The notes below the pieces were generated by a model. It was not told the DNA's origin. It was given only the letters and a program-made list of their open reading frames with translations, and did not search any database. A DNA stretch of 64,000 bases. It comes from Candidatus Saccharimonadota bacterium. GTDB taxonomy: Bacteria; Patescibacteriota; Saccharimonadia; Saccharimonadales; UBA4665. Location of the stretch: NCBI GenBank assembly GCA_027315225.1, contig DAHUYJ010000001.1:1-64000 (forward strand). Reading direction: 5' to 3'. A program made the position numbers and the translations under genes. Shown here piece after piece: positions 32,840 to 41,957 of this stretch; position 1 is the first letter of the stretch, and each line of letters begins with the position of its first letter.

Positions 32840-33538
32840 TCACGCAGCCTTGATTGTCGGCTGCAAACCATACGCCTGATTAAGCGCCTCAATATTCTCA
32901 GCTACGGTACCCTCCCCAGAATAGACCGGTTGAAATAGATCATCAGGAGGATCAACTTCGGGGACTTCCCTGCCAGCTGCCGCAAGGACATTGCTAAGAT
33001 TAGTGACCGCAAAGGTACCGAGCGCCACGGTATATTTATGCGGCAATTCTTCAGCTTTGATTTCGCCCGCTTTACCAATTTTCGAGGGCAAATTTCCACA
33101 CATACGCTGCTCAATCTGGCCCTGCTTAAGGTAACTCGCTGCTTTTGCCGCCGCCTGCCAGTCAAAGTAGCGTCCGCCGTCTGCCCACAAGCAGCCGAGG
33201 CTGCCGTGGCCAATAAGGGCGACATCGGTAACCTCGGGGTCGCCAAAGACAAGTTTCATGTCATCGACGACCGCTATACGCTTTATGTCTATTTGCTGGT
33301 GGTCTTCTCTTCTGGCTTGCAGGAGCGTGTCAGCTTCTTCCAGAAACGCCCGGTGCTGCTCCCTGGGCGTAAGTTTAGAACTATGGTCTGGAACCCGAGA
33401 AACGATTATCGCTAGCTTTCCTGCTCCGCTCGGGAGACTTATTTTGCCCGCATCAAGCAGTTTGTCCCTCTTGCGGGAAGCTTTTTGAATATCCTTAAGC
33501 GTCCTTTGATAACTCCGGCCTTCGTAGCTTATTGCCAT
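32840..33538 (-). CDS. Unknown protein with VALIGHG motif (232 aa)
   Basis: A 232-residue soluble protein. Near residue 107 it has four hydrophobic residues then His-Gly (VTDVALIGHGSLGCLW), and about 40 residues later Cys-Gly (IEQRMCGNLP). That His-Gly/Cys layout is reminiscent of clan CD cysteine peptidases (caspase/CHAT/gingipain), but spacing and surroundings are not decisive. The start at 33538 is chosen because a TATAAT box at 33545-33550 overlaps the two codons upstream. No other clues come from neighbours. Confidence 0.65.
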   Translation of the reverse strand: MAISYEGRSYQRTLKDIQKASRKRDKLLDAGKISLPSGAGKLAIIVSRVPDHSSKLTPREQHRAFLEEADTLLQARREDHQQIDIKRIAVVDDMKLVFGDPEVTDVALIGHGSLGCLWADGGRYFDWQAAAKAASYLKQGQIEQRMCGNLPSKIGKAGEIKAEELPHKYTVALGTFAVTNLSNVLAAAGREVPEVDPPDDLFQPVYSGEGTVAENIEALNQAYGLQPTIKAA

Positions 33539-33576
33539 ATGCATATTATACCACAGTTTATCACTTTTACCATAAT

Positions 33577-34275
33577 CTACCCTGACGTATGGACATAGGT
33601 CTGCAGCATTGTTTGGATGAGTTGCCGGCAGGCCGGGAGGAGTATTTCAACATCTTTGATCTGGGCAAGGGTACCAGGATAGTGCCCGTCTAATGCCAAG
33701 CGTAAAAACTTTATATGGTTTGCAGCAAACGTGTTGTTCGAGCCTTGGGTGAAGCCTGCGGCCTGGAAATCGAACGTGTAGCTCTCGCCAGGTTGAAGTG
33801 GCTTGCCGGTAACATCGTTCGCCAAATCAGGGGTGTGTCCGCCTAGTTGCAGTATACGGGCCTCGAACCAAAGCTGGATTAGCTCCGTGCCGATAGATGG
33901 CTCGTCCAGGGCTGAAAATACTTGCTCAAGCAGTTCAAAATAAGCCTTTTCGGGGTGGTCCTCGGTGACCTGGTCCAGCATTTTTATCAAGTCGTAACCC
34001 AGCTGTACGCGGTCGATGGTACCAACTATACGGCCGTAATGCCGCACCAGACGGCTGGATATCAGCGTGCCGATTTCGCCCCTGCCCCGGATAAACGTAA
34101 TGTCGCTGACACTGAACAGCTCAATGCCGCCGGCTAGCTTGCTCTTGGCTTTGCGTACGCCGCGGGCCATCAGCCGCACCTTGCCATGGTCAGGAGTCAA
34201 AAGCGTGATGATACGGTCCGCCTCACCATAGTTGGTGCGGCTCAGTACAATGCCGCGGGTAACTACATGGTTCAC
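33577..34275 (-). CDS. recO: DNA repair protein RecO
   Basis: A 232-residue RecO with the N-terminal OB fold (TRGIVLSRTNYGEADRIITLL then MARGVRKAKSKLAGG) and the helical C-terminal domain. The zinc-binding cysteines of some RecO proteins are missing. RecO with RecR loads RecA on SSB-coated gaps. The start is GTG, overlapping the stop of the upstream receiver gene as GTGA. The linkage to a degenerate kinase/receiver pair is unusual. Confidence 0.93.
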   Translation of the reverse strand: MNHVVTRGIVLSRTNYGEADRIITLLTPDHGKVRLMARGVRKAKSKLAGGIELFSVSDITFIRGRGEIGTLISSRLVRHYGRIVGTIDRVQLGYDLIKMLDQVTEDHPEKAYFELLEQVFSALDEPSIGTELIQLWFEARILQLGGHTPDLANDVTGKPLQPGESYTFDFQAAGFTQGSNNTFAANHIKFLRLALDGHYPGTLAQIKDVEILLPACRQLIQTMLQTYVHTSG

Positions 34276-34658
34276 GTTTTTATGGGATTTAGTTCTTCTA
34301 CGGCGGCCAGGAGCTGGCGTAAGGAGGTGCGCGGCTTGTACAAGTATGCCTGGACGCCCAGTTCACCTTGCAGTAACTGCCAGCTGCCCTTGAATTCACC
34401 CGATGGTACTTGCGACTGCACAATCACCGGGACCGCTTGCCAATCCTGATAAGACCGGAATTCATAGAGGAACTCTATACCGGAGTGTTCAACCAGTTGG
34501 AGTTCGAGGATTACGATGTCCGGCCGGGCCGAATCAGCCGCCATAATAGCTGCCTGGGCGCCGTGCGCTACCGCCACGTCGTGCCTGGCCCGCTCCAGGG
34601 CTTGCCGGTAAGTGGCGGCCAGCTGGCGGTCAGGTTCGACGAGGAGAATATGTGCCAT
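34272..34658 (-). CDS. Degenerate receiver domain (phospho-acceptor Asp replaced by Glu)
   Basis: A 128-residue receiver-only protein starting AHILLVEPDRQLAATYRQAL. The stretch normally reading LLDLMLP...SGIE is VILELQLVEHSGIE, so the phospho-acceptor Asp is Glu, coded GAA. The Lys of the YKP motif remains. Glu at this site often mimics the phosphorylated state, so a constantly active or purely structural role is likely. A TACACT box lies 7 bases before the ATG. It overlaps recO by four bases and follows the degenerate kinase by 18 bases. Confidence 0.85.
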   Translation of the reverse strand: MAHILLVEPDRQLAATYRQALERARHDVAVAHGAQAAIMAADSARPDIVILELQLVEHSGIEFLYEFRSYQDWQAVPVIVQSQVPSGEFKGSWQLLQGELGVQAYLYKPRTSLRQLLAAVEELNPIKT

Positions 34659-34676
34659 CGTTCTTAGTGTACAGGA

Positions 34677-35399
34677 TCAGACCAGCTGAATCTGGCGGCT
34701 CGGCTGCAGAACGGTGCCCAAACCATACAACCGATGATGGCGTGACGTCCTGAGACGCAGCGCCATGGCCTGCAGGATAGTGTCGGCAACAAAAATCCCC
34801 GCCCCGCTGGTATGCGTTAGGTTCAGTAGCGGTTGCCGGCTATGGCGCTGCAAGCGGCGGCCGCGGCGTAGCGCCTCGTTGCTGAGCTGCCTGGTGTCAG
34901 CGTACAAACCGGCCACGATACCGTAGCGGCTGCGGTGGGTGGCAAGCTGAAGTTTGAGCTGGGCACTCTCCTGTGCCGGCAAAGCTTCGATCAGTGCCGC
35001 GCCCAGGCTGACCAGCGCAGCCTGAAGACCCTGGCGGTGCGCCAACACCGGTCCGAACCGGCCGGCTACGTTTAGCTCCAGGGCAACGCCATAATTCCTG
35101 GCCAGGGCGTCAAGCTGCTGTCCGGCATCATACAGGACCGATGATACTGATACTGACTCGATGTCCAGTTGCGCCCGTTCCAGGCTCAAACGCACCCCTA
35201 GAACGTAACTGTCCAAAAGTTGCAAAGCAGAGTCGGCCGTCGTCCTGATAGCCATAAGGTCAGCCGGACCGTCGAGGCTTGCCTGCTCAGCCTGTCGGGC
35301 GATCTGTAACAGAGGCAGCTTGAGCTCTTCTGCTATGCTCAGCAAAAGTTGTTGAGATAGAGCCGGCGATGTACCGGTCCTTTCTTTTTCACGCCACAT
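34677..35399 (-). CDS. Degenerate histidine-kinase-like protein
   Basis: A 240-residue protein with the dimerisation-helix pattern of HisKA, but the H box reads IAEELKLPLLQIA, so the acceptor His (SHELRTPL) is Glu. The following domain has the general helix/strand order of HATPase_c, but the N-box Asn and the glycine boxes are gone apart from a trace (HTSGAGIFVADTIL). Neither ATP binding nor autophosphorylation is expected. The start at 35399 has AGGA upstream; a GTG 21 bases earlier is possible. It heads the gene pair leading into recO. Confidence 0.75.
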   Translation of the reverse strand: MWREKERTGTSPALSQQLLLSIAEELKLPLLQIARQAEQASLDGPADLMAIRTTADSALQLLDSYVLGVRLSLERAQLDIESVSVSSVLYDAGQQLDALARNYGVALELNVAGRFGPVLAHRQGLQAALVSLGAALIEALPAQESAQLKLQLATHRSRYGIVAGLYADTRQLSNEALRRGRRLQRHSRQPLLNLTHTSGAGIFVADTILQAMALRLRTSRHHRLYGLGTVLQPSRQIQLV

Positions 35400-35492: not shown

Positions 35493-36173
35493 TTACGGGG
35501 AGAAGCTGAAGTTCGGCAAGATGTAATTATTGAAGTCGCTCAGGTACTGGCTCCCTTCGGTCCATATCTCCAAAGTATTGGAACGTAGCGGCAGCACGAC
35601 CATGGTAACGTTAGGCGCATTAGCCAAGTCATTCTGATTTATCTGGCCGACAACCTCAACACCGACAATCTTAGGCAATTTAGGCAAAGCGTAGGCGCTA
35701 ACCGTGATTTTGCCGTTTTGCTGTTGGCCGGTAAATGTTTGCAGCGTCTGGGCGTAGGTTTGGCTGAGAACCTGTACGCGTAGCGCAAAAACCGAATTCT
35801 GGTCACTGATTGACGGCACGACGCCAGGCGCGAAGTAACCGTCTACCAACGTGCCGCCCGTGCCGGTGTCATCAACATACGCGCTCCAGGTTTTGGGAAA
35901 CATGACCGCCATGCTCCCGTACGCCTCAGGCCCGTTATAGGTTTTGAGCGGCTGCTTGGCAGCCTCGGCAAATTGTGCGCTGTCGACCTTGCCCTGTTGC
36001 TGCTTGGCTATCTTTACAGCAGCACTGATCTTGGCGTCAACGTTGTCCTTATAATCCTGCCTTCCCTGGAAAGCCCATACGCCAAAGGCTGCTGACCCTA
36101 TCAGAAGCAGGATGGCCAACACCAGTGAAATTGCCACGCCGCTGACAGCTCCATTTTGGTTATGCTTGGTCAT
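35493..36173 (-). CDS. Unknown membrane-anchored protein (226 aa)
   Basis: A 226-residue protein with a single N-terminal membrane helix at about 12-32 (VAISLVLAILLLIGSAAFGVW), then a soluble extracytoplasmic region beginning with a charged helical segment (DNVDAKISAAVKIAKQQQGK). No Cys and no lipobox are present, so it is not a lipoprotein. The rest appears to be an alpha/beta domain without a recognisable motif. It stands between the pseudokinase and a methyltransferase operon. Confidence 0.7.
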   Translation of the reverse strand: MTKHNQNGAVSGVAISLVLAILLLIGSAAFGVWAFQGRQDYKDNVDAKISAAVKIAKQQQGKVDSAQFAEAAKQPLKTYNGPEAYGSMAVMFPKTWSAYVDDTGTGGTLVDGYFAPGVVPSISDQNSVFALRVQVLSQTYAQTLQTFTGQQQNGKITVSAYALPKLPKIVGVEVVGQINQNDLANAPNVTMVVLPLRSNTLEIWTEGSQYLSDFNNYILPNFSFSP

Positions 36174-41504: not shown

Positions 41505-41957
41505 TTACTTGTCGTCGAGATGGTGGCGAATCCGATCAATAACGTCGGCGATGACGACTTGGGATTTTACCAGATAATCGTCCGCACCAAGAGCCTTGGC
41601 CCGTTCCTGGTCGCTTGGCTGGCTCAGAGCGGTGAGCATAATGATCTTGAGATTGGCCGTCTCCGGCGTATTGCGCAGGATATCCAGCACGTCAAAGCCG
41701 CTGACTTTGGGCATCATAACGTCCAGCACCACCAGGTCGGGATGGTAGCTTAGGGCCGTAGCCAGGGCGTCTTCCCCGTTGTTGACCCGCCGCACATCAA
41801 AACCTTCGCCCTGTAGGCGGGTTACATAGACATTGGCTAGCGCGTCATCGTCTTCAACAAGTAGGATGCGCTGGGGATGCTTGGGTGGCTCGGCAGCCGC
41901 GGCGGGTTGCTGCGTGCCGGGCATGTCAGGTTTGTCAGATGATTCCATACTGCTCAT
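41505..41957 (-). CDS. Response regulator, receiver domain only
   Basis: A 150-residue protein: a Pro/Ala-rich N-terminal arm of about 28 residues, then a full receiver domain with LLVEDDD, the acceptor Asp in VVLDVMMP, LTAL and LVKS. The core closely resembles the receiver at 4715-5986 (SGFDVLDILRNTPE versus SGFEMLDILRNTEG). No output domain and no adjacent kinase. It starts 27 bases after pyrG, on the same strand, with its own upstream region inside that gap reversed (pyrG follows it). Confidence 0.92.
   Translation of the reverse strand: MSSMESSDKPDMPGTQQPAAAAEPPKHPQRILLVEDDDALANVYVTRLQGEGFDVRRVNNGEDALATALSYHPDLVVLDVMMPKVSGFDVLDILRNTPETANLKIIMLTALSQPSDQERAKALGADDYLVKSQVVIADVIDRIRHHLDDK

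Follow-up and report, generated by a model that had tools for sequence, protein, structure and literature searches.

A histidine kinase-like protein and the stand-alone receiver encoded next to it, just upstream of recO in a Saccharibacteria genome, have both lost the residues of phosphotransfer while keeping their folds, and each carries a glutamate at the position of the lost acceptor, as a sequence-only reading of this DNA had proposed; the reading frames stay open, and both glutamates are conserved. As a rough estimate, we hold it very likely that the two are a phosphorylation-free binding pair; we also favour, with less assurance and from sequences and models, the fuller reading that a former two-component pair was turned into a pair of proteins that bind each other independently of phosphorylation, with an output left unspecified. 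The feature is real and found throughout the class, and a specific link to replication and repair is possible. Pseudo-kinases have been described, and so have pseudo-receivers, but each singly; here both partners of one pair are dead.

The window analysed is a stretch of 64,000 nucleotides (contig DAHUYJ010000001.1, positions 1 to 64,000). Its minus strand carries, in order, xseA, xseB, a methyltransferase-like gene, the gene of a membrane protein, the kinase-like gene, the receiver gene, recO, a small gene and a glycyl-tRNA synthetase-like gene, the names xseA, xseB, methyltransferase and glyS being read from the translations. Rechecking the open reading frames and the letters placed both genes of the pair where they had been described and established the GTGA overlap between the receiver gene and recO; the expression "fused by position" to recO does not hold, since the two genes overlap by 4 nt and are not fused. 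An AGGA precedes the ATG start of the kinase gene at 35399, as read from the sequence. Between recO and the glyS-like gene lies a 234-aa open reading frame (32840-33544), which only three of the sampled loci share and for which a Pfam and NCBIfam scan returned no significant match.

Table 1. Positions in the window of the kinase-receiver-recO locus and its parts.
Feature	Positions	Strand	Evidence
Pseudo-histidine kinase, 240 aa, DHp and CA fold, without sensor or transmembrane domain	34677..35399	-	
Glu codon GAA at the acceptor His position (E24), context SIAEELKLPL	35328..35330	-	
Pseudo-receiver, stand-alone, 128 aa	34272..34658	-	Pfam Response_reg E 5.4e-11 and alignment
Glu codon GAA at the acceptor Asp position (E52), context VILELQL	34503..34505	-	
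GTGA overlap, 4 nt, receiver stop TGA and recO start GTG	34272..34275	-	
recO, RecO N and C domains	33577..34275	-	PF11967 E 1.2e-22, TIGR00613 95.8 bits
QIQLV tail, C-terminal end of the pseudo-histidine kinase	34680..34694	-	
Membrane-anchored protein, PsbP/Mog1-like domain, upstream of the pair	35493..36173	-	

The kinase-like protein matched none of the Pfam and NCBIfam histidine kinase models, Pfam HATPase_c included; hence its identity rests on AlphaFold and Foldseek and on homology to the canonical histidine kinases found at the same locus. Its AlphaFold model (pLDDT 89.7, pTM 0.88) contains a complete DHp two-helix hairpin and a CA domain. The best PDB matches of this model in Foldseek are, over the full length, the HK853 chains complexed with RR468 (E 8.5e-10), followed by other kinases, the pseudokinase DivL among them (E 1.1e-7, TM about 0.66), which together support the original call of a histidine kinase fold. 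Thermotoga maritima HK853-RR468, the closest solved structure, in which the DHp-CA core is bound to a receiver, is catalytically active, whereas the Saccharibacteria pair is without the acceptor His, the N and G1 boxes and the acceptor Asp. In the window kinase, the N-box Asn is replaced by Ala and the Asp and Gly of the G1 box by Ala and Thr. The claim that the N and glycine boxes had been lost along with the His, replaced by Glu, is thus correct for the N and G1 boxes; the G2 region is eroded in part only (SGAGIF). Two of the three marks of a DivL-like pseudo-histidine kinase, the histidine kinase fold and the loss of the acceptor His, are observed; the third, integration with a receiver, would lie in a putative binding of the adjacent receiver.

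The receiver scores above the gathering score of Pfam PF00072 and has the receiver fold, while the acceptor Asp is replaced (Glu52), the DD metal pair is broken (its second member, DD2, is Pro), and Lys108, Ser80 and Tyr105 are retained. It fits the definition of a pseudo-receiver (PsR), a PF00072 receiver domain without the residues required for phosphotransfer (PMC12632262). In the clade of loci with the degenerate pair (hereafter the pseudo clade), the Lys is kept in 93 of 97 receivers, the Ser or Thr in 94 of 97, and a Tyr or Phe at K-3 in 77, levels exceeding those of pseudo-receivers generally, in which T and K persist in about 65% of cases and the Y-T coupling in 47% (PMC12632262). The receiver resembles the bacterial PsRs lacking D/DD/T/K in a receiver fold that has neither the acceptor Asp nor the metal-binding DD2 acid, and differs from them in keeping the K, the S/T and the coupling aromatic far more often, in the near-uniform change of Asp to Glu and in being paired with its own pseudo-kinase. 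New near-invariant residues have also appeared in its beta3-alpha3 loop and alpha3 (H58, G60, E62, F63, R68, Y70 and W73), the region flagged as newly functional in pseudo-receivers (PMC12632262), and a Tyr was gained at K-1.

Since the Lys, the Ser/Thr and the aromatic residue at K-3 are retained, it is plausible that the Glu imitates phospho-Asp, and the conservation of these switch positions fits a receiver that would be locked in an active-like state. An Asp-to-Glu change does not mimic phosphorylation in some receivers. Plant PRRs and Chlamydia ChxR, whose acceptor Asp is replaced (by Glu in the PRRs) and which work without phosphorylation, resemble the Saccharibacteria receiver; they are equipped with output domains and lack a linked pseudo-kinase, whereas the latter stands alone. 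A 2025 review (PMC12632262) describes the switching of bacterial pseudo-receivers as a mystery.

Comparison of orthologues bore out the conservation of both glutamates: the 30 homologous loci closest to that of the window, retrieved through the similarity of their receivers rather than with a Glu-containing pattern, have an invariant Glu at both sites (30/30), so that the pair of substitutions is not due to chance. Another 48 named loci were excluded as support for Glu because the search pattern contained AE. The pseudo clade comprises 24 families, including that of the window; its His site is Glu in 75 sequences and His in one, its Asp site Glu in 88 of 97 and Asp in six (all from family f29), its N box mostly Ala or Ser, and its DD2 position Pro in 86 of 98. 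The sister families (f23, f26 and f32) are canonical, with His in 47/50, the N-box Asn in 48/50, the acceptor Asp in 49/50 and the DD2 Asp in 47/50, and the outgroups have Asp in 17/17 and His in 12/15. In a quick IQ-TREE phylogeny of RecO and the membrane protein, supported by SH-aLRT values only, all rows lacking His or carrying Glu fall into a single clade (96 tree rows, SH-aLRT 90), whose neighbours are the canonical sister families and the outgroups. A canonical pair was therefore, as the sequences have it, probably converted once, anciently, and then retained. Orthologues with normal His and Asp, which the sequence-only reading had named as evidence against itself, do exist, as the ancestral and sister state at the same locus and not mixed inside the clade. 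A phylogenetic test for correlated loss of His and Asp gave no significance, with typically two concordant, no discordant and three unchanged pairs; such a test has too few independent events to be powerful, the main conversion apparently being a single one. The locus offers a natural experiment, since the same operon has kept its chemistry in one clade and lost it in the sister clade and the conversion can be placed on the tree, and it makes directly testable what a two-component pair does after removal of the phosphate.

Several families depart from this pattern. In f29 (L153, L154, L213-L216 and L218), the kinase His is replaced by Asp, Glu, Asn or Gly and the receiver mostly keeps its Asp, which would be either an intermediate or a reverted state; since the Asp is kept there without the His, Glu is not universally required. 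Locus L230 (genome G127, f26) represents an independent double loss inside a canonical family: Gly has taken the place of the kinase His and Ser that of the receiver Asp, and the N and G1 boxes are still intact. Families f36 and f46, separate cases, combine a degenerate kinase with a canonical receiver. In f18 (L137, L138 and L254), the kinase His site is occupied by Tyr (LLYDLQ), just as it is in DivL.

The pattern of constraint after the conversion speaks for a binding pair under selection and not for decay. The pseudo-kinases acquired new near-invariant residues, E38 and D63 on the DHp helices and G226 in the CA domain, in addition to Gln236 near the C-terminus, which is common to the pseudo and canonical groups; and in most pairs of relatives the kinases share about as much identity as the RecO proteins do, or more. 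That the genes are pseudogenes being lost from a reduced genome would agree with the missing catalytic residues and with the genome reduction typical of the phylum. Premature stops in relatives had been named beforehand as a sign of such decay, and one was found, a single in-frame stop in the kinase gene of one relative (G231), the frames being otherwise open. We reject decay, which we rate as extremely improbable, on account of frames kept open and conserved across 24 families, to which add the RecO-like level of kinase identity, the newly arisen near-invariant residues and the high confidence of the AF2 model.

We then consider how far the gene order extends. A total of 168 genomes was sampled, many of them anchored on RecO to avoid missing divergent kinases, and those locus matches that bear names are Candidatus Saccharibacteria or Saccharimonadia. 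Among class loci with at least 2.3 kb ahead of recO, the kinase and receiver genes lie upstream of recO in 104 of 105; the absence of a recO linkage in other genomes, which would have spoken against the proposal, was thus not encountered, and the order proved class-wide, often with 4-nt overlaps. The receiver gene and recO lie within 20 nt of each other in 82 of 85 pseudo loci, and the 4-nt overlap occurs in 58 of 85 pseudo loci and 29 of 59 canonical loci. In its pseudo form, the pair is conserved across at least 24 Saccharibacteria families. In an outgroup at class level (f39, L253), a domain scan showed that a GAF-PAS-HisKA-HATPase kinase occupies the recO locus. The class outgroups L253, L265-L269 and L273 have a longer kinase there, with mostly canonical residues and a tail of the QLPLL type (QLSLF in L267). 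One genome outside the class (L202) also has kinase, receiver and recO together; the arrangement was not seen in the remaining 28 phylum loci sampled from genomes other than that of the window, a sample that favoured high RecO scores. In family f20, recO was not found in either genome searched. At L158 (G313, f20), the pair adjoins a glyS-like gene with no recO there, and its receiver carries Asn in place of the acceptor Asp and no longer has the Lys; from this one case (n = 1), loss of recO may be accompanied by erosion of the pair.

The wider block of genes is syntenic too (methyltransferase gene in 42/49 loci, xseA in 39/49, glyS in 69/94). Since these neighbours are syntenic as well, the linkage to recO is weakened as evidence that the pair acts in recombination repair; taken as proof of function, it did not survive this control, and it may be mere inertia. 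Direct contact of the pair with RecO is a candidate that we regard as rather unlikely. The idea that RecF is absent and that the pair replaces it was ruled out, RecF being found in 53 of 59 relatives. Our literature search found no paper on a two-component pair at the recO locus of Saccharibacteria, and two-component genes are unmentioned in the text of a Tn-seq paper (PMC10633639).

The other constant neighbour is the upstream membrane protein, a single-span protein whose PsbP/Mog1-like domain is predicted to be extracytoplasmic. Its AF2 model reaches a pLDDT of 91 and matches PsbP in Foldseek (E 3.6e-4), and no Pfam family scored above the cut-off. The protein is found in 29 of the 30 nearest loci, in most class loci and, adjoining the pair, in nearly all order genomes sampled. 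It could, as a speculation, be a sensor that replaced a lost GAF-PAS part. This constant association and the synteny of the wider block leave room for an alternative to which we give about one chance in four, that the pair and the membrane protein serve envelope or host-contact sensing and that recO is a mere co-transcribed neighbour in a superoperon. Against it, several class outgroups possess the kinase, the receiver and recO with no membrane protein detected adjacent (within short flanks), and one such outgroup kinase has its own GAF and PAS domains; the kinase-receiver-recO trio thus looks like the oldest part of the locus.

A further feature is the C-terminal tail of the kinase, which the sequence-only reading had overlooked, as it had the upstream membrane protein and the canonical relatives. 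The kinases of the class end in Q-L-x-L-(L/V/I/F) in 143 of 163 cases, against 0 of 1301 other open reading frames from the same loci, a background that includes non-coding frames. A looser form of the pattern was found in 0 of 8 other kinase frames of the window's own genome, 1 of 166 receivers, 2 of 165 RecO proteins and 0 of 149 membrane proteins. Among canonical tails, QLSLL is the commonest (Ser at position 3 in 38 of 59; Leu at position 5 in 44 and Phe in 6), whereas those of the pseudo clade read QLQLV/I, with the Q and the Leu at positions 2 and 4 conserved and position 5 mostly Val or Ile. The bacterial consensus for binding to the sliding clamp is QL[S/D]LF or QxxLF and is often C-terminal (PMC12309361, PMC4549789). 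The canonical QLSLL is close to QL[S/D]LF (PMC12309361), the window tail QIQLV is a weak match, and DnaE of the same genome carries QVDIF. By its letters, then, the tail resembles a clamp-binding motif, and the pseudo-clade form is the weaker match; that it tethers the kinase to the clamp is a tentative idea, to which we give roughly one chance in three. We give even odds to the alternative that the tail closes the kinase structurally or belongs to its interface with the receiver: conserved hydrophobic residues close a folded domain, AF2 models the tail as a short helix with moderate confidence (pLDDT about 73), and the pseudo consensus departs from QxxLF. It accounts less readily for a Gln kept in virtually all members, canonical kinases included (QLSLF in f37), and for a motif that neither the remaining kinases of this genome nor the histidine kinase of the phylum outgroup shows. 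A literature search for clamp motifs in kinases found no paper, and a tail that binds the clamp would be, as far as the searched literature shows, the first link between a kinase and the clamp and would tie signalling in an understudied phylum to the repair of gaps that depends on RecO.

Taken together, the data suggest that the pair acts through contacts with its partners and not through phosphate transfer. In the mechanism we propose, the Glu of the receiver, with Lys108, Ser/Thr80 and Tyr105, would hold an active-like conformation, and the pseudo-kinase would keep its receiver-docking DHp surface and bind the receiver constitutively as a scaffold. Since the receiver is without an output domain, output would have to go via partner binding, for which the best candidates would be RecO, encoded by the overlapping gene, and the sliding clamp, through the Q-L-x-L tail; the pair would then station RecO near replication gaps. 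Such stationing is biologically reasonable, since targeting of RecFOR to DnaN via RecF has been proposed in E. coli as a route bringing RecA-loading proteins to the clamp (PMC10287930). The two systems differ in that the candidate clamp link would here be a pseudo-kinase encoded with RecO, RecF also being present in most genomes. The full version, a phosphorylation-free scaffold tethered to the replisome whose kinase tail holds the clamp and whose Glu-locked receiver holds RecO, is improbable in our view, at perhaps one chance in five; if true, such a scaffold would, in many families of Saccharibacteria, bring the loading of RecA to replication gaps.

Equally improbable is that the pair is wired into another pathway in the manner of DivL and that its recO neighbourhood is incidental; the pseudo-kinase would read the phosphorylation of another receiver, the pseudo-receiver would compete for a live kinase, or both. 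The genome offers partners for such wiring (11 HATPase_c matches elsewhere, seven receiver matches in all), and DivL, which is among the solved Foldseek matches, does work in this way (PMC4211667). This Caulobacter pseudo-histidine kinase likewise has a full histidine kinase fold, a replaced acceptor His and a link to a receiver (PMC4211667). In DivL, however, the His site holds Tyr and the receiver that it reads, DivK, is live, whereas the Saccharibacteria kinase adjoins a receiver that is itself dead and has lost its own ATP boxes. The two partners degenerated jointly and still lie side by side, which mutual binding fits better, and the clade-specific near-invariant residues of the receiver suggest a dedicated partner.

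Elsewhere in the window, a canonical-looking receiver (VLDVMMP, DDD) is encoded at 41505-41957 on the minus strand, directly downstream of a pyrG-like gene, and its length shows no apparent output domain.
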